A program made the translations under genes and the position numbers. DNA of 64,000 nt from the NCBI RefSeq assembly GCF_900104765.1, contig NZ_LT629737.1, positions 372,001-436,000 on the forward strand, written 5' to 3'. Positions 129 to 64,000 of the stretch are shown here, one piece after another (within the stretch, counting starts at the first letter, position 1; each line of letters starts with the position of its first letter). The DNA is from Gillisia sp. Hel1_33_143. Its GTDB lineage: Bacteria; Bacteroidota; Bacteroidia; Flavobacteriales; Flavobacteriaceae. The notes under the pieces were generated by a model. It saw nothing but the letters and a program-made list of their open reading frames with translations, did no database searches and was not told where the DNA came from.

Positions 129-218
129 GTTTATATATGTCAGTAATATGGTAGTGGCATAATTTTAGTCAGTTATAGCAATACGAGATAAAAACTAATT
201 AAATAAAAATAATTACAC

Positions 219-35736: not shown

Positions 35737-36270
35737 CTAATAATAAGGAAACATAAATACATAGACCAAAACCCCCGTAACCGCCACATATAACCATATT
35801 GGGAACGTCCATCTGGCTATTTTTACATGTTTGTCATATTGCCCGGTTAATCCTCTATACATCGTAAATAATACTAATGGAACAATTATAGCTGAAAGTA
35901 CAATATGGGTAATTAAGATAAAAAAGTACAAGTACTTAACAAAACCTTCTCCACCATAAGGAACAGGAGCATTACTTATCTTAGAGATAACATAACTAAT
36001 TAGAAAAACACTGGACAATGCAAAAGCAGTGATCATAAAATTGCGATGCCATTTGTATTCTTTAATAGACATACAATAATAACCAGCTATTAGTAACAAT
36101 GCGGTACTACCATTTAAAACTGCGTGGAACAGCGGAAAAGTTCCTGCTTGAACTCCAAGAAAATTATACCTTTCTGGTAAATAAATTAAGATAAGCACCA
36201 GTACCGGCACCACTATAGAAAGGGTAATAATTGTAGGAACTGCAATTTTATCTATTTTAGTTGAAGCCAT
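35737..36270 (-). CDS. DUF420 domain membrane protein (CtaM-like)
   Basis: A 177-residue protein with five predicted membrane helices. It matches the DUF420 family, of which Staphylococcus CtaM is needed to mature haem-copper oxidases. Conserved polar positions inside helices are visible (FHAVLNGSTALLL; KEYKWHRNFM; ITHIVLSAIIVP). It follows the SCO gene by three bases and lies in the same strand block as ctaB and the oxidase subunits, which supports an oxidase assembly role. Confidence 0.85.
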   Translation of the reverse strand: MASTKIDKIAVPTIITLSIVVPVLVLILIYLPERYNFLGVQAGTFPLFHAVLNGSTALLLIAGYYCMSIKEYKWHRNFMITAFALSSVFLISYVISKISNAPVPYGGEGFVKYLYFFILITHIVLSAIIVPLVLFTMYRGLTGQYDKHVKIARWTFPIWLYVAVTGVLVYVFMFPYY

Positions 36271-36273
36271 TCT

Positions 36274-37008
36274 TTATTTCAATAATGTTTTAATGTCTGC
36301 TATTAGCTCCTCTATCTCTGCCTTTTCTTCACCTTCAGTTATAGAATTTTCAGGATCTATAGAGCCTCTGTAATAGATGATAGGATTTCCATACTGATCG
36401 TTTCTAGATCTAATAAAACCTTCCTGATCTATTAGGGCAAATAATCCTGAATGAGCAAAACCTCCCGGAACAGTTTGATCTTTATCTGCAAATATTCCAA
36501 AACCAGAATTTGCAACTTTGTAGATCTCTTCTCTATCTCCAGTTAAAAAATTCCAGTTTTTATTAGAAATACCGTGACCTTCTTTGTACTCTTTTAATAC
36601 CTCTGGAGTATCGTGCTCAGGATCTATAGTAAAGGAGGCAATTCCAAAATCATCATTCCCTTTAAATTCCTTTTGAACATTAATTAAATTAGCATTCATT
36701 ATAGGACAAATTGACGGGCAGGTACTAAAGAAAAATTCTACAACATACACCTTTCCAAGGTAGTCCTCATTAGAAATAGTATCTCCATCCTGATTTATGA
36801 ATTGAAAGTCTGGCACACGTTTATTCTTACCATACTGCTCTATATAGCCTACTTCAGAATTATCACCATTGGCGCGCTTTACATTTAACCTATCGGTTTC
36901 CACAATATCATCACTACCAATTCTATCAACGATCTTTGGAATAAAGATAATTCCAAAAATCAAAATGATTAATGATATTCCTATATAAGATGAGTTCTTC
37001 TTATTCAC
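36274..37008 (-). CDS. SCO family copper chaperone
   Basis: SCO proteins bind copper in the periplasm and help metallate the CuA site of oxidase subunit II. The 244-residue product has an N-terminal anchor helix (about 8-25), a thioredoxin-like fold with the copper-binding CxxxC (Cys97, Cys101 in STCPSIC) and the third ligand His186 in GGFAHSG. The start is a GTG at 37008, overlapping the upstream gene by eight bases; no ATG gives the anchor helix. The overlap implies coupled translation with the cysteine-free SCO-like protein. Confidence 0.93.
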   Translation of the reverse strand: MNKKNSSYIGISLIILIFGIIFIPKIVDRIGSDDIVETDRLNVKRANGDNSEVGYIEQYGKNKRVPDFQFINQDGDTISNEDYLGKVYVVEFFFSTCPSICPIMNANLINVQKEFKGNDDFGIASFTIDPEHDTPEVLKEYKEGHGISNKNWNFLTGDREEIYKVANSGFGIFADKDQTVPGGFAHSGLFALIDQEGFIRSRNDQYGNPIIYYRGSIDPENSITEGEEKAEIEELIADIKTLLK

Positions 37009-37645
37009 TTTCGAGTTTTTTATATTTTTTAAGTGCTAACCTATATTCTGCCAAAAGAACTTTTACATCATCATTCATTTTGTTATTTAATTCTGAAACC
37101 GATCTAGAATCATAACCATATAAAAGATCACTATCCTCATCTTCATCTCTACCTCTTAGGTTTCTATCTTTATCTATTAAAAACACATAAGGTGTTTGAA
37201 GATTTTCATCTAATTGCAGATTGGTCTTAAAACTGTTAAAGACACTCATTACTAAAGCCGGAGGAGCATATACAAACTTCCAGTGTTGTGAATTTGTAAT
37301 TCCTTCAAATTCTTGCACAAAAGAGTTTACATCTCCTTTAGCACTCTCTGGAAGAACTACTACAAATTGAAAATCTTGAAAACCGTAAAATTTTTGAAGT
37401 ATCTTCTGGTCTAGATTGAAAGTATTACCTTTTAAAGATTCAGGATCATTACCAAAGAAGGCAACTACACTAATCTTATCCTGAAAGCTAACTAAGGAAT
37501 CTGATCTAAACTCCAGGTTTGAAATGTCTTCTACCTGTTCTGTTAAGATAGGAAGTTTCGCAAAGTGATTAATGCCAGAAGCAAAGAAAAGATAAGCTAC
37601 TATAGGCAGTAAGAATAAAACACCAAGTATGAGAAACTTCTTCAT
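37001..37645 (-). CDS. Cysteine-free SCO-like protein
   Basis: A 214-residue protein, probably membrane-anchored by a helix at about 4-22. It contains no cysteine at all. By eye it aligns with the SCO protein encoded next to it: VVAFFGNDPES sits where SCO has VVEFFFSTCPS, SQHWKFV matches NKNWNFL, and TPYVFLIDKDRNLRGR matches AHSGLFALIDQEGFIRSR. All three SCO copper ligands are therefore lost. It may be a structural partner of SCO or of the oxidase. A terminator with a TATTTTTG box lies just upstream. Database annotation is probably 'hypothetical'. Confidence 0.7.
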   Translation of the reverse strand: MKKFLILGVLFLLPIVAYLFFASGINHFAKLPILTEQVEDISNLEFRSDSLVSFQDKISVVAFFGNDPESLKGNTFNLDQKILQKFYGFQDFQFVVVLPESAKGDVNSFVQEFEGITNSQHWKFVYAPPALVMSVFNSFKTNLQLDENLQTPYVFLIDKDRNLRGRDEDEDSDLLYGYDSRSVSELNNKMNDDVKVLLAEYRLALKKYKKLESE

Positions 37646-37720: not shown

Positions 37721-38086
37721 TTAGAAGTCCCAGGCAACATAACCATGCTTATAGACCTCGTAAATATAGTCTCCTTCTGTTAGTAAGATAAACATTAGGT
37801 AACTTATTAAGAATACTGCGGTCCAAACTACAGATCTTCTAAGACCTTTAGACTCGCCTTCCAAGTGCATAAATGCCCAGGCAATATAATATGCTTTATA
37901 AATTGTAAGAAGAATAAAGATCCAGTTAAGCAATTTCATTGCTAGAAAGTGAGTTTCAATAAGAAACGCTGGTCTTATAATTCCTAAGATTACTTCAACA
38001 ATAGTTACTACAGAAAGAATAGCGAAAACCATCCATATTCTTTTTGCATTAGATTCGTGATGTGTATGTGTAGTATCGTGTGCCAT
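37721..38086 (-). CDS. Cytochrome c oxidase subunit IV (prokaryotic type)
   Basis: A 121-residue protein with three membrane helices (about 16-38, 47-68, 85-105), matching the small subunit IV of bacterial haem-copper oxidases (COX4_pro/CyoD-like). The WIFILLTIYKAYYIAWAFMHLE segment is typical. The N-terminus is His-rich (four His in the first ten residues). It follows the larger subunit III gene by 17 bases and ends the structural part of the operon. Confidence 0.85.
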   Translation of the reverse strand: MAHDTTHTHHESNAKRIWMVFAILSVVTIVEVILGIIRPAFLIETHFLAMKLLNWIFILLTIYKAYYIAWAFMHLEGESKGLRRSVVWTAVFLISYLMFILLTEGDYIYEVYKHGYVAWDF

Positions 38087-39129: not shown

Positions 39130-39711
39130 TTATCTAAAGAAATATAAAAATACAAACAGGTAAACCCAAAGGATATCTAAAAAGTGCCAAAACGTGGCAC
39201 CTAGCTCTATTCCAAGCATTTGCCCCGGATAGTAACGTTGTTTAAAATGGTTATAAATTACAACCAAAAGCACTATGATACCTGCCGCTAAATGCGCAAG
39301 GTGAGCTAAAACCACTACATAAATAAACGAAGTAGTAATAGTGCTTTCACTACCGGTAAAATAATACCCTGCAGCTATGATCTCCGAAAAACTTTGAAAT
39401 TGAAGAATTATAAAAATAACAGCCAGCACCAAAGTTGCGGTTAAGAACATAGTTCCTCCGCTTCTATTGCCTTCTCCAATCTTCTTTTTAGCCATTATAA
39501 AAGTTAAACTACTTATCATTATAGTTAACGTACTCCAGTAAAGACTTGCAGGCAATACAAAATCTCCAACCCAATCTGGTCTATTCTTACTAACTACATA
39601 AGCACTGGTAAGCCCGGCAAACATCATTACCATGCTAATAATCCCAAACCAAAGCATCATTTTCTTTGCTCTGCCTATTTTATGATCTACGGTTCCCTGT
39701 GTTAAATCCAT
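39130..39711 (-). CDS. Cytochrome c oxidase subunit III, short form
   Basis: A 193-residue subunit III-like protein with five helices. The family end is clear: LAHLAHLAAGIIVLL near 135 and the final FWHFLDILWVYLFVFLYF. It lacks the first two helices and the insertion seen in longer forms. Its ATG overlaps the ctaB stop by ten bases, so translation is probably coupled. With the long-form paralogue downstream it presumably builds the oxidase core together with coxA and coxB, which lie 20 kb away. Confidence 0.9.
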   Translation of the reverse strand: MDLTQGTVDHKIGRAKKMMLWFGIISMVMMFAGLTSAYVVSKNRPDWVGDFVLPASLYWSTLTIMISSLTFIMAKKKIGEGNRSGGTMFLTATLVLAVIFIILQFQSFSEIIAAGYYFTGSESTITTSFIYVVVLAHLAHLAAGIIVLLVVIYNHFKQRYYPGQMLGIELGATFWHFLDILWVYLFVFLYFFR

Positions 39712-40604
39712 TGTCTTATAAATTTATCTAAAACGTATACAATTTGCAGTAGTGTGATGTAAGACACACTAGCAAACATTAATTTCTTTGCCGAGGCAAC
39801 ATCTCTTTTCTTATAAAGATTGAACGCATAGTAAAGCATTCCTAATCCTAATACTAATATAATAGCTCCAGAGACCGGAGTTAAATATAACCTTCCAGTA
39901 ACTCCAAATACAGGAATTAAAGAAACAGCTATGGTCCATATAGTATAAAGAATTACCTGAATTGCAGTTCCTTTATCCCGCTTACCGGTTGGCAGCATAA
40001 AGAATCCTCCTTTTTTATAATCATCAAATAACCACCAACCAATAGCCCAAAAGTGAGGGAACTGCCAGAAGAATTGAATCATAAAAAGCGTACCCGGCTC
40101 TATACTAAATTCGTTAGTGGCAGCCACCCATCCCAACATGAATGGAATTGCTCCAGGAAATGCTCCCACAAATACAGAAAGTGGTGTTCTTGTTTTCAAC
40201 GGCGTATAAACACTTACATAAAGAAAGATACTTATAGCACCAAACATTGCAGTCTTCGGGTTAATAATATAAAGCACTACCAAACCTAGAACAGTAAATG
40301 TGCTGGCAATAATAAAAGCTGTTGTGGTTGTCATTCTCCCAGAGGGAATAGGACGATTTTTAGTTCTATCCATCAAAGCATCAAGATCTCTCTCGATGAT
40401 CTGGTTGTAAGCATTAGACGCTCCAACCATAAAATACCCTCCAATAGCTAGTAGTAGAACGGTAACAAAATCGATAACTTCAGCTCCTAGAAAATATCCT
40501 GCCACAGAAGAAAAAACCACACTTATTGCCAAACGCATTTTAGTGATTTCTTTAAAATCTGAAAGGATTGATACTGAAGGAGTATGTACGCTGGTATTAC
40601 TCAA
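39702..40604 (-). CDS. ctaB: Protohaem IX farnesyltransferase (haem O synthase)
   Basis: CtaB/CyoE adds a farnesyl group to haem B to make haem O, the precursor of haem A for the oxidase. The 300-residue product has about nine helices and the prenyltransferase motif NAYNQIIERDLDALMDRTKNRP (about 64-85). The start is a TTG at 40604: the next in-frame ATG would cut into the conserved KMRLAISVVFSS segment, and the promoter lies only about 20 bases upstream. It is the first gene of the oxidase operon. Confidence 0.94.
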   Translation of the reverse strand: MSNTSVHTPSVSILSDFKEITKMRLAISVVFSSVAGYFLGAEVIDFVTVLLLAIGGYFMVGASNAYNQIIERDLDALMDRTKNRPIPSGRMTTTTAFIIASTFTVLGLVVLYIINPKTAMFGAISIFLYVSVYTPLKTRTPLSVFVGAFPGAIPFMLGWVAATNEFSIEPGTLFMIQFFWQFPHFWAIGWWLFDDYKKGGFFMLPTGKRDKGTAIQVILYTIWTIAVSLIPVFGVTGRLYLTPVSGAIILVLGLGMLYYAFNLYKKRDVASAKKLMFASVSYITLLQIVYVLDKFIRQWI

Positions 40605-60201: not shown

Positions 60202-62022
60202 CTAATGATTCATCTCTTCTTCATTCTCTTGAAGTGGTACGTCCTGCGGGACGAAATCCTGACCAGCAATTACATATTCTCCATCTTCGTTGACCTTAGA
60301 ATAATCGTAAGGCCATCTGTATACTGATGGTATAGCTCCAGGCCAGTTACCGTGAATATGCTCTACCGGAGTAGTCCATTCTAATGTGGTTGCATTCCAA
60401 GGATTCTGAGTAGCCTTCTTTCCGAAGAACATAGAACTAAAGAAATTATATAAGAATACTAATTGAACGATTGCAGTTATAATAGCAAAAACAGTTATAA
60501 TAACATTTACATCTGCCAAATCATCAAAGTATGGAAATGCTGTATTCGTATAATATCTTCTTGGAAGACCTGCCATTCCAATAAAGTGCATTGGGAAGAA
60601 TACCCCATACGCTCCAACAGCAGTTACCCAGAAATGAATATATCCTAAGTTCTTATTCATCATTCTACCAAACATTTTTGGAAACCAGTGGTATACACCA
60701 GCTAACAAACCGTAAAGTGCAGATATCCCCATTACAAGGTGGAAGTGAGCAATTACGAAATAAGTATCATGAACGTTGATATCTAAAGTACTATCTCCCA
60801 AAATAATTCCTGTTAGACCTCCAGTAATGAAGGTAGAAACGAAACCTATAGAAAATAACATGGCAGGGTTCATTTGCAGATTTCCCTTCCATAAAGTTGT
60901 GATCCAGTTAAAAGCTTTTACAGCAGATGGAATTGCAATTAACAAAGTTGTAAAGGTAAAAACAGATCCTAAGAAAGGATTCATACCAGACACGAACATG
61001 TGGTGTCCCCATACAATTGTAGATAGAAATGCAATTGCCAATATAGATGCTACCATGGCTCTATAACCAAATATTGGTTTACGTGCGTTGGTTGCCATAA
61101 TTTCTGATACAAGCCCCATTGCCGGAAGTATAACGATATAAACTTCAGGGTGCCCTAAGAACCAAAATAAGTGCTCAAATAATACTGGAGAACCACCTTG
61201 ATGACTCAACACTTCTCCTTGAATAAAAATATCACTTAAGAAGAACGAGGTACCAAAACTTCTATCCATTATAAGTAACAATGCTGCAGATAATAATACA
61301 GGGAAAGAAACAACCCCAATAATAGCTGTTACAAAGAATGCCCAAATTGTAAGAGGAAGTCTAGTCATAGACATTCCAATAGTTCTCATATTGATAACGG
61401 TAACTATATAGTTTAAAGATCCTAATAAAGAGGAAGCAATAAATACAGCCATAGCACTTAACCAAAGAGTCATACCAAGACCAGAACCTCCAATAGCCTG
61501 TGGCAATGCACTAAGCGGCGGATAAATGGTCCAACCTGCTGAAGCGGGTCCTGCCTCCACGAAAAGAGAACTAAGCATAATTACACAAGAAACAAAGAAT
61601 AACCAGTAAGATACCATGTTCAGAAATCCTGACGCCATATCTCTTGCACCAATTTGAAGTGGTATTAAAAGGTTACTAAATGTTCCACTTAAACCTGCGG
61701 TTAATACAAAAAATACCATGATAGTACCATGTATAGTAACAAGCGCTAAGTAGATCTCCGGAGACATAACACCATCTGGTGCCCATTTTCCTAAAAGTGC
61801 CTTAAAGATCCAGAAAGATTGCTCTGGCCATGCCAGTTGCATTCTAAAAAGAATCGACATTAATATACCGATAACACCCATTAACAAACCTGTTATAAGG
61901 TATTGCTTAGAGATCATCTTATGGTCTGTACTAAAAATGTACTTTGTAATAAAGGTTTGCTTATGATGATGCCCATGATCATCATGTGCGTGATCTAGCG
62001 TTGCGTGTCCTGCTGCTGACAT
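60202..62022 (-). CDS. coxA: Cytochrome c oxidase subunit I
   Basis: The catalytic subunit of the haem-copper oxidase, with twelve or more helices in 606 residues. Ligand motifs are visible: LVTIHGTIMVFF (haem a His), FLGHPEVYI (CuB His and the cross-linked Tyr), WGHHMFVSG (CuB His pair) and HDTYFVIAHFHLVMG (haem His pair). The N-terminus is His-rich, with seven His in the first 20 residues. It follows coxB by 19 bases. Subunits III and IV and ctaB are in a second block 20 kb away. Confidence 0.96.
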   Translation of the reverse strand: MSAAGHATLDHAHDDHGHHHKQTFITKYIFSTDHKMISKQYLITGLLMGVIGILMSILFRMQLAWPEQSFWIFKALLGKWAPDGVMSPEIYLALVTIHGTIMVFFVLTAGLSGTFSNLLIPLQIGARDMASGFLNMVSYWLFFVSCVIMLSSLFVEAGPASAGWTIYPPLSALPQAIGGSGLGMTLWLSAMAVFIASSLLGSLNYIVTVINMRTIGMSMTRLPLTIWAFFVTAIIGVVSFPVLLSAALLLIMDRSFGTSFFLSDIFIQGEVLSHQGGSPVLFEHLFWFLGHPEVYIVILPAMGLVSEIMATNARKPIFGYRAMVASILAIAFLSTIVWGHHMFVSGMNPFLGSVFTFTTLLIAIPSAVKAFNWITTLWKGNLQMNPAMLFSIGFVSTFITGGLTGIILGDSTLDINVHDTYFVIAHFHLVMGISALYGLLAGVYHWFPKMFGRMMNKNLGYIHFWVTAVGAYGVFFPMHFIGMAGLPRRYYTNTAFPYFDDLADVNVIITVFAIITAIVQLVFLYNFFSSMFFGKKATQNPWNATTLEWTTPVEHIHGNWPGAIPSVYRWPYDYSKVNEDGEYVIAGQDFVPQDVPLQENEEEMNH

Positions 62023-62041
62023 AACTTTAAATCTTTAACTT

Positions 62042-63184
62042 TTAGTTTTCTTCTTTTTCTTCTACTGCTGATGCCACTTCTACGTTCTCTTTTGGAGCAT
62101 CTCCAACAGAATCTTCAGTATCTTGTGGTGCCATAGCATCCTTAAATGTTTGCTGTTCTTTTATCCAAGCATCATAATCTTCTTGAGACTCAACAACAAT
62201 CTTCATTTGCATATTATAGTGACCTTGTCCACAAATCTTATTACATAAAAGATAGTAATCAAATTCGTAAGAATCTAAAGGAGCTTCACCTTCAGCCATT
62301 AACTTTTTAGAATTGTCTTTTCTAATTTCGTTAATGTTATCAACCTTTTCTACCATATATTCAGATGCTCTCATCTCTTCCGTAGTGATAGAAGGAGTAA
62401 AACCAAACTGAGTGATCATTCCAGGAACTACGTTCATTTGAGCTCTAAAGTGAGGAAAATAAGCAGAGTGTAAAACATCTTGAGATCTAAGTTTAAAAAC
62501 TACTGGCTTCCCAACTGGTAAGTGTAATTCTGTTGTAACCTTGTCATCCATAGCATAAGGATCGCTTTCATCTACCCCTAATTGATTTACACCCTCAATA
62601 AACCTAACATTAGCTTTACCTAAAGTATTATCATCACCAGAATATCTAGCTCTCCATGCAAATTGATATGCATAAAGCTCTACAACCATTGGATCTTCGT
62701 CTTCATTAATGTTCATAATATCAGACCAGGTGAACAACCCGTAGATTATAAGTCCGGCTAATACAATTACAGGTATAATGGTCCAGATGAATTCTAACTT
62801 ATCATTATCTGCAAAGAACAAAGCCTTCTGCCCTTTCTTACCTGTATACTTTATAGCGAAGAAATGCAATAAAGCTTGAGTAAGAACCTGTACGAACATA
62901 ATGATACCTATTGAAAGGAACATTAAGTTATCTACTGCTCCACCATGTTCTGAAGCAGCTTCCGGAAGATAGAATTTACTGTAATGCCAGAAACACCAGA
63001 TCATCAAGGCATAAAAGAACACAACAAAACCAACCATGATATAAGCCTGGCTTTTGTTATCCTTATCATTGGCAACCTGTGATGAATCTACATCACTGCT
63101 TTTGGATAACTGGAATATCTTGGATATTTGCCACATGGTTACGGCAAAAAGTGCTAATACTATGATTACTAAAAATACAGTCAT
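62042..63184 (-). CDS. coxB: Cytochrome c oxidase subunit II
   Basis: Subunit II carries CuA, the entry point for electrons from cytochrome c. The 380-residue product has four hydrophobic helices (about 1-20, 47-69, 87-111, 131-152), two more than the usual pair, then the cupredoxin domain with DVLHSAYFPHFRAQ and the CuA loop CNKICGQGHYNM, which has both Cys, the His and the Met. The usual Glu between the cysteines is Lys; its backbone is the ligand, so CuA should still form. No fused cytochrome c domain. The tail is acidic and low in complexity. Confidence 0.94.
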   Translation of the reverse strand: MTVFLVIIVLALFAVTMWQISKIFQLSKSSDVDSSQVANDKDNKSQAYIMVGFVVFFYALMIWCFWHYSKFYLPEAASEHGGAVDNLMFLSIGIIMFVQVLTQALLHFFAIKYTGKKGQKALFFADNDKLEFIWTIIPVIVLAGLIIYGLFTWSDIMNINEDEDPMVVELYAYQFAWRARYSGDDNTLGKANVRFIEGVNQLGVDESDPYAMDDKVTTELHLPVGKPVVFKLRSQDVLHSAYFPHFRAQMNVVPGMITQFGFTPSITTEEMRASEYMVEKVDNINEIRKDNSKKLMAEGEAPLDSYEFDYYLLCNKICGQGHYNMQMKIVVESQEDYDAWIKEQQTFKDAMAPQDTEDSVGDAPKENVEVASAVEEKEEN

Positions 63185-63214
63185 TTTTATAATATCTACT
63201 TTTAATACTAATTG

Positions 63215-64000
63215 TTAATAATGGTAATTTTCACTTTCTACAATGAATGGGTTACCTTTTGGTCTTAACGCTACTTTCCCAAGACCAGCACCTACAACCA
63301 AGATGAACAGACCAAGGAAGAACAATAATCCTCCAATTTCAGTAATTCCAAAGAACCAGTATGGACCAACCGTAGAAGGCATAACTAGTAAGAAAACATC
63401 AATATAGTGACCAGCTAATAACAAAACTCCTGCCATAATTACGAACCATGGAATACGTTTGTAATCACTATTTATTAATATTAAAATTGGGAATACAAAA
63501 TTAAGCACTAGCATTCCAAAAAACAATAGATTATACTCTTGAATTCTAATAATAAAATAAGTTACTTCTTCAGGAATATTCGCATACCATATTAGCATAA
63601 ATTGACTAAACCATAAGTAAGTCCAGAATACACTAAAAGCAAACATGAATTTTGCAAGATCATGTAAATGACTATCGTTAATGAAAGGAACTAAGTTCAA
63701 TTTCTTCAACATTATAGTTACCAATGCTATAACTGTTATAGCAGATACGAACATAGTAGCAAAAATGTACCATGCAAACAAAGTACTATACCAGTGAGGC
63801 GTCATAGACATGAACCAGTCCCAAGCCATAGTAGATTCTGTTACAATAAAGAACATCAAAAAGAAAACAGCTAATTTAAAGTTCCTTTTATAAGGAGCTA
63901 GATCTAACGCAGTTTCTTGAGCTAATGAATTTTTTCTAGAGAAGTGACGATATAAGTTCCAACCTATAATATAGATAATTCCTCTAATTAGAAAGAATGG
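63215..64000 (-). CDS. actF: Quinol:cytochrome c oxidoreductase quinone-binding subunit 2 (ActF), partial
   Basis: The last 261 residues of an integral membrane protein; the frame is open to the right edge and the start lies outside. It has several helices, including WYSTLFAWYIFATMFVSAITV and FSVFWTYLWFSQFMLIWYANIPEEV, and a C-terminal LFILVVGAGLGKVALRPKGNP. These fit ActF of alternative complex III, which oxidises menaquinol and passes electrons toward the oxidase. It precedes coxB by 30 bases, the usual Bacteroidota arrangement of act and cox genes, so the respiratory chain is genetically joined here. Confidence 0.85.
   Translation of the reverse strand, partial: PFFLIRGIIYIIGWNLYRHFSRKNSLAQETALDLAPYKRNFKLAVFFLMFFIVTESTMAWDWFMSMTPHWYSTLFAWYIFATMFVSAITVIALVTIMLKKLNLVPFINDSHLHDLAKFMFAFSVFWTYLWFSQFMLIWYANIPEEVTYFIIRIQEYNLLFFGMLVLNFVFPILILINSDYKRIPWFVIMAGVLLLAGHYIDVFLLVMPSTVGPYWFFGITEIGGLLFFLGLFILVVGAGLGKVALRPKGNPFIVESENYHY

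Follow-up and report, generated by a model that had tools for sequence, protein, structure and literature searches.

A conserved SCO homologue without a copper site beside a canonical SCO in the cytochrome oxidase assembly operon of Flavobacteriaceae

SCO proteins (SCO1/SenC, also Sco, PrrC and YpmQ) are copper chaperones of the CuA centre, and it is still debated whether they act on CuA as copper donor, as thiol reductase or as docking factor. Their copper and redox site is defined as CXXXCXnH in a review whose accessible part also considers Sco as perhaps bifunctional, serving both as reductant and as copper chaperone (PMC9145763). A further protein, CtaM, is needed for the haem-copper oxidases of Bacillus (PMC13344008, PMC9145763), and the label CtaM for the DUF420 protein treated below is taken from the excerpted text of these two sources. 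One of them, from 2026, proposes in its accessible part that CtaM exports copper that is then used by Sco, and it mentions planctomycete Sco-CtaM fusions, known here by this mention only, in which an SCO domain is physically joined to DUF420 (PMC13344008). An SCO homologue without the cysteines and the histidine has been described from plants, namely the mitochondrial HCC2 of Arabidopsis, which according to the accessible part of the report is not required for COX, has been tied to UV-B stress, exists next to the normal SCO HCC1 and retains five other cysteines (PMC3971200). For Bacteroidota and other bacteria, no description of a cysteine-free or degenerate SCO was found in the accessible text of the open-licence PMC literature, and the term SCO does not occur in the accessible part of PMC8552683, a study with deletions of actA and actE in Flavobacterium johnsoniae. 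The loss of the copper site in an SCO is thus already known in plants, and the bacterial counterpart described here is without a precedent found in that literature.

The window, that is, the whole analysed stretch of 64,000 nucleotides from Gillisia sp. Hel1_33_143, contains an oxidase assembly operon (Table 1), in which an SCO-like protein, here called S2, precedes a canonical SCO and the DUF420 protein. The initial annotation had read S2 as a protein of 214 residues that has no cysteine and overlaps a normal SCO by eight bases; the open reading frame has exactly the proposed limits, and the overlap (37001-37008) exists if the GTG start of the SCO holds. The order of S2, SCO and DUF420 recalls the planctomycete fusions, which differ in that a single fused protein carries the SCO domain. 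The UbiA-type protein at the upstream end is presumably CyoE, a name that we assign from its operon context. The genes for COX1, COX2 and ActF (60202-64000, minus strand) lie about 20 kb from the operon with COX3, COX4, S2 and SCO. The best match of ActF is chain F of 6btm (E 4.6e-112), and at this distance the oxidase genes appear to be split between an alternative complex III (ACIII) cluster and an assembly cluster. In the whole genome there are three matches to PF02630; the two SCOs encoded elsewhere (L032 and L033, at G000:C1:814486 and 223149) carry CVTIC and CPTIC, and one of them has a lipobox-like N-terminus.

Table 1. Genes of the oxidase assembly operon and of the separate COX1/COX2 cluster, with the predicted domains of S2
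Feature	Position in the window	Strand	Basis and remarks
Secreted or membrane protein with CxxC (QCAMCR), 77 aa	35455..35688	-	final gene of the operon
DUF420/CtaM-like membrane protein	35737..36270	-	PF04238, E 1.5e-41
Canonical SCO (SCO1/SenC)	36274..37008	-	CPSIC and His186; PF02630, E 8.4e-30
S2, Cys-free SCO-like protein	37001..37645	-	214 aa, ATG start
S2 domains	residues 2-23, 33-157, 183-213		predicted structure: TM helix (motif LPxxxY), thioredoxin/SCO-like core, long C-terminal helix
Oxidase subunit IV (COX4_pro)	37721..38086	-	PF03626, E 6.8e-13
COX3-family subunit, 326 aa	38104..39084	-	PF00510, E 1.4e-10
COX3-family subunit, 193 aa	39130..39711	-	PF00510, E 3.2e-13
UbiA-type protein, probably haem O synthase (CyoE/CtaB-like)	39702..40604	-	PF01040, E 2.7e-59
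COX1	60202..62022	-	open reading frame recognised by eye
COX2, presumed client	62042..63184	-	CuA motif intact (H...CNKICGQGHYNM); PF00116 match; phmmer to 1ar1_B, E 9.5e-17

That S2 and the neighbouring SCO are related had first been proposed from an alignment by eye, and the same segments are recovered by BLASTP (E 0.001, 24% identity over 104 columns), which pairs ITNSQHWKFVY of S2 with ISNKNWNFLTG of the SCO, and LIDKDRNLRGR with LIDQEGFIRSR. Comparison of the two family profiles by hhalign (A1 for S2 and A2 for SCO, 41 sequences each) gave a probability of 97.4% and an E-value of 1.1e-11 over 198 aligned columns that extend from the anchor to the C-terminus. This match is well past chance, and on the strength of these profiles S2 is homologous to SCO. 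The AlphaFold model of S2 (mean pLDDT 89.4, pTM 0.81) has the thioredoxin/SCO-like fold that the initial annotation led one to expect: Foldseek placed BsSco 1xzo (E 3.1e-6) and the SCO lipoprotein 4hde on top, and VIA-align ranked 4hde first (Z 14.1, 154 residues, rmsd 2.8 A), followed by 1xzo (Z 13.7). For comparison, the model of the neighbouring SCO found 4hde with E 2.1e-16 and 1xzo with E 8.7e-14. By the rule of the VIA tool, a PDI-like protein from Bacteroides (2ls5, Z 13.2) counts as tied, and the next places, at 12-13, go to peroxiredoxins and further thioredoxin-like proteins, so that the modelled fold is thioredoxin-like with SCO ranked first, rather than exclusively that of SCO. As these other proteins score so close, it is the profile comparison and the operon, and not the fold alone, that set SCO apart. 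The Pfam profile of SCO1/SenC did not detect S2: PF02630 is not listed for S2 at E <= 10, the sole listed Pfam match being Redoxin below the cut-off (E 0.092), and at E <= 0.01 it matches 0 of 41 S2 sequences.

With the SCO chaperones, S2 has in common the fold of 4hde and 1xzo, a predicted N-terminal membrane anchor, the WxF and LID...R motifs and the place in an oxidase operon, but it differs from them in that CxxxC and the His ligand are absent and in that PF02630 misses it. The predicted N-terminal helix is hydrophobic and follows a KK pair; a single anchor with a periplasmic domain is the topology that the positive-inside rule would predict. The C-terminal helix of S2 is longer than that predicted for the partner SCO, which spans residues 232-243.

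The replacement of the metal site, as noted initially, holds across the family sample. CxxxC is absent from the S2 of the window and of 40 out of 40 relatives fetched from Flavobacteriaceae, loci that were hand-picked from match lists for spread of score and family, while all 40 partner SCOs possess it; the tree alignment includes 12 S2 sequences of Flavobacteriaceae, and these have S, G, Q, F, Y or A in the column of the His ligand. Among these relatives 24 have no cysteine, 15 have one and a single protein has two (positions 14 and 167), and a shifted C...C motif is impossible from these counts and positions in all 40. A replacement copper site of His, Met or Cys was also sought at 80% conservation in 41 sequences, and none was found, M190 being the sole Met of this kind. 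Of the H, M, C, D and E positions, only D158, D168, D169, M190, D193 and E200 reach this level; with neither a His nor a Cys among them, copper binding and CuA delivery by S2 appear unlikely. Because the defining CxxxC-His site is absent, S2 is not classed as an SCO copper chaperone.

Ten columns of S2 are invariant in the 41 sequences (F11, P14, L31, F63, G65, N77, Q93, W122, R164 and D193), and the mean pairwise identity is 52% in the TM anchor, 50% in the C-terminal helix and 43-60% in the core strands. The dN/dS ratio, calculated by the method of Nei and Gojobori and unreliable where dS is near or above 1, is 0.04-0.067 in the eight closest pairs listed and 0.04-0.542 (median 0.082) over 22 pairs, some of which are one genome fetched twice; SCO pairs gave 0.033-0.349. 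Judged by these ratios, S2 is under purifying selection.

S2 was matched in 189 of 199 Flavobacteriaceae genomes (160 of 165 of good quality), and the 34 S2-bearing genomes that were searched all contain at least one PF02630 match over the cut-off. A search of a plasmid collection with S2 gave no match. The location of the pair in the oxidase assembly operon is confirmed by the order COX4-S2-SCO-DUF420(CtaM), which is present in all 40 fetched loci. Further loci came from named records (Gillisia, Christiangramia, Salinimicrobium, Aequorivita, Maribacter and unnamed Flavobacteriaceae, several of them MAGs): S2 is ahead of SCO in 22/22 and lacks CxxxC in 22/22, with no cysteine in 20 proteins and one in two. 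As to the translational coupling suggested in the initial annotation, the first possible SCO start is at most 5 nt from the S2 stop in 19 of these 22 loci, and the spacing by longest open reading frame varies from -53 to +91 nt in the 40 fetched loci; tight linkage is the rule, and the exact overlap is not conserved. The ten genomes without an S2 match include five that are less than 90% complete, six with a COX2 match and eight without a DUF420 match. In one of them, G181, a diverged Cys-free protein occupies the slot after COX4. G128, which is 99% complete, has COX2, DUF420 and SCO, and S2 was not found in it; four incomplete genomes have COX2 and neither DUF420 nor S2. S2 may therefore be dispensable for some such oxidases.

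In most of the other Bacteroidia examined, the operon position between COX4 and DUF420, here called the slot, is held by a single SCO with CxxxC. An order-level search with S2 matched 126 of 196 genomes, which is not a count of S2, as many weak matches are ordinary CxxxC SCOs. From these match lists 20 loci of other Flavobacteriales families were hand-picked for spread of score and family; 13 have a single slot SCO with CxxxC and His, five are S2-SCO tandems from four families (f10, f12, f13 and f15), and two are SCOs outside the operon. COX4 is visible in 12 of the 13 unpaired loci and DUF420 is next in 8, L109 being cut by a contig end. Like S2, these slot SCOs have an LPxxxY-type anchor (e.g. 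LPSAIYIFFSYGNHNFAHLP) and in many cases also the C-terminal DDIKxLxAEY tail (DDIKVLMAEYNLAKK); they differ in having no adjoining second SCO and in keeping CxxxC and His, in 13/13 unpaired loci of the order and in 29/40 of the class.

A model of the anchor (S2 residues 1-40, trained on Flavobacteriaceae S2 only, with no match entered as -5) scored 3.1 to 33.1 bits (median 21.1) on all 46 CxxxC slot proteins, 13 from other Flavobacteriales and 33 from the class. On the paired SCOs of Flavobacteriaceae it scored -5.3 to -0.4 bits (40/40), which is a complete separation. Its highest scores were -1.6 among five paired SCOs from other families and 0.3 among four SCOs outside the slot. The scores of the tail model overlap, with -5.0 to 31.5 (median 5.7) for the CxxxC slot proteins versus -5.2 to 4.7 (median -2.0) for the paired SCOs. 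As the slot proteins score with the S2 anchor and often with its tail, and the paired SCOs do not with the anchor and mostly not with the tail, the anchor and tail found in the slot protein live on in S2 and not in the neighbouring SCO. By its sequence S2 looks like the successor of the slot protein, and the adjacent SCO would do the catalysis. This modifies the initial view of a duplicated chaperone that has lost its metal site: SCO homology and site loss stand, but S2 is probably more than an inactive copy of its neighbour, which has no anchor motif and mostly no tail. Homologues with CxxxC, which the initial annotation had named as evidence against its reading, do exist in part: the proteins at this position in other families keep the motif, as the ancestor of S2 would have done, and none of the 40 Flavobacteriaceae S2 has it. 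In the tandems of f13 and f15 (L117, L118 and L119), the N-terminus of the catalytic SCO is lipoprotein-like by eye and has no TM anchor, and the partner SCO may have switched its membrane attachment there.

The slot protein has lost its copper site in other Bacteroidia as well. Here, 40 loci were chosen by hand out of 178 matched genomes so as to vary in score and family; the slot was recognised by a COX4 and/or DUF420 match adjoining the gene in 39 (L171 has neither). CxxxC and the aligned His are retained in 29. Seven proteins are without CxxxC (L169, L173, L175, L179, L187, L188 and L197), among them L175 and L179 of one genus, which have lost different cysteines; four more have C...C without the His (L184, L185, L194 and L201, with Tyr instead in L194 and L201). 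Family f53 presents a graded decay, as L194 and L201 combine CxxxC with Tyr for His and everything is lost in L197. In the genomes of the seven proteins without CxxxC and of L184 and L185, a further SCO with CxxxC and His is found elsewhere (9/9); one of these, L213, fell outside the search pattern, and its His was seen on reading (IHQGYLVLVD). With the second full-length PF02630 match in the genomes of L194 and L201, 11 of 11 site-loss genomes have another full-length SCO, compared with 15 of the 29 genomes whose slot protein is intact, the other 14 having none (Fisher p 0.0036, relatedness ignored). A second full-length SCO means a PF02630 match of more than 50 bits outside the slot, CxxxC having been read for nine genomes only. 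On the core tree described below, the loss of CxxxC needs six changes, or three if the four His-less sites also count as lost, and well-supported branches require a minimum of two. CxxxC looks to have been lost more than once in Bacteroidia, the exact number being unsure because of long branches. The AU test rejects a tree in which the 25 rows without CxxxC form one clade (p 0.024); its groups were defined by Cys state once a quick tree was known, and the four His-less rows were counted as intact.

The origin of the pair was addressed with a tree of 98 core sequences, from which the active-site columns were removed and the near-duplicates L107 and L112 excluded. The Flavobacteriaceae partner SCOs fall into a group of 39 rows (96/92) together with the slot SCOs of other families and the partners of the other tandems; two non-slot SCOs of f5 are also inside this group, and L032 and L033 of the window genome are outside. 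S2 is on a long branch apart (82/85), with the long Cys-less slot proteins L173 and L187 of other families, and is the sister neither of the partner SCO nor of the Flavobacteriales slot SCOs, in a tree whose bootstrap had not yet settled. As the partner groups with slot SCOs while L032 and L033 do not, a tandem duplication is favoured over the recruitment of another SCO of the genome; since the tree puts S2 away from its partner, we infer this duplication from position and partner affinity. The competing account, in which the slot SCO decayed into S2 and an SCO from another place moved in alongside without any tandem duplication, agrees with the separate branch of S2, with the lipoprotein-like adjacent SCO in f13 and f15 and with the site losses of slot proteins in other Bacteroidia, whose genomes have a second SCO elsewhere. 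We nevertheless regard it as somewhat unlikely, given that the partner groups with the slot SCOs of other families and not with the two non-slot SCOs of its own genome.

As to function, S2 is an SCO homologue that probably works alongside the SCO, and we lean towards the view that it is a pseudo-SCO without a copper site, the anchored but catalytically inactive member of a pair of proteins that assembles CuA. The operon SCO would have been duplicated in tandem in an ancestor within Flavobacteriales, after which the two copies would have specialised, the neighbour keeping copper binding and thiol chemistry and S2 whatever the slot protein does without copper. Most likely S2 would dock or position the SCO, and with it CtaM/DUF420, on COX2 or other oxidase subunits, by way of its anchor, its SCO-like face and its C-terminal helix; what is reported on CtaM and Sco fits this picture. 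Retention in 189/199 genomes, the fixed order in 40/40 loci, homology, fold, anchor scores, the grouping of the partner with slot SCOs in the core tree, selection and the lack of an alternative metal site count for such a docking role, as do the eight of ten S2-less genomes that also lack DUF420 and the diverged slot protein of G181; the intact CuA motif of COX2 fits a role in CuA assembly. Against it count the overlapping tail scores, the S2 dN/dS values of up to 0.54, the position of S2 off its partner in the tree, the two non-slot SCOs of f5 inside the partner group, and the genomes with COX2 in which S2 was not found, G128 among them.

Alternatively, S2 could have turned into an additional structural subunit that stays bound, via its TM and C-terminal helices, to the aa3/caa3 oxidase or to a supercomplex of it with alternative complex III. 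Its place beside COX4 in 40/40 fetched loci and near the COX3 genes, the roughly equal conservation of anchor, C-terminal helix and core strands, and the missing metal site would all suit a subunit, but S2 stands with the assembly genes of the operon, ahead of SCO and DUF420, and we consider this unlikely. The S2 profile found no solved chain (best E 0.25), a result that is uninformative here, as the searched set includes ActF of 6btm and no close relative of COX2 or COX4. It is quite improbable that S2 now serves in copper or redox stress instead of in oxidase assembly, as the plant HCC2 would suggest with its equivalent loss of Cys and His: S2 is in the oxidase operon, eight of the ten S2-less genomes are also without a DUF420 match, and 24 of 40 S2 relatives have no cysteine at all, whereas HCC2 keeps its five others. 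HCC2, which is compared here by description, and S2 are alike in having lost CxxxC and His while a normal SCO is kept, and differ in that S2 is bacterial, often Cys-free and placed in an oxidase operon beside its partner; our guess is that they arose independently, as the loss looks repeated even within Bacteroidia. That S2 is a decaying, functionless relic, as the loss of every catalytic residue might suggest, is hardly credible and is contradicted by the low dN/dS of the closest pairs, the ten invariant columns and the occurrence of a stop in only one S2 match among the matches listed.

A conserved SCO relative that has no copper ligands and retains anchor and tail suggests that the SCOs of this group also do a copper-free job. 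Tentatively, we consider it quite possible that the operon SCO of Bacteroidia has a second, copper-independent function, residing in anchor, fold and C-terminal helix and separable from copper delivery, which would be repeatedly uncovered where another full-length SCO lets the slot protein drop its metal site; pairs of a catalytic and a copper-free docking SCO would result, fixed nearly family-wide in Flavobacteriaceae. An SCO stripped of its metal and thiol site and conserved beside an active one makes such a function testable by gene deletion, and the graded losses in other Bacteroidia (His only, one Cys, both Cys) provide natural intermediates.

Two further proteins of the operon deserve mention. 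The 77-aa CxxC protein has a signal-like N-terminus and a TM-like stretch; a homologue is present in 40/40 fetched Flavobacteriaceae loci, immediately 3' of DUF420 in 39, and homologues also follow DUF420 in many other Bacteroidia loci. A thiol or metal step in oxidase assembly is possible for it. In the COX3-family subunit of 326 aa, PF00510 is matched twice, with the better match at 259-325, and the long middle, outside this better stretch, may be an insertion.
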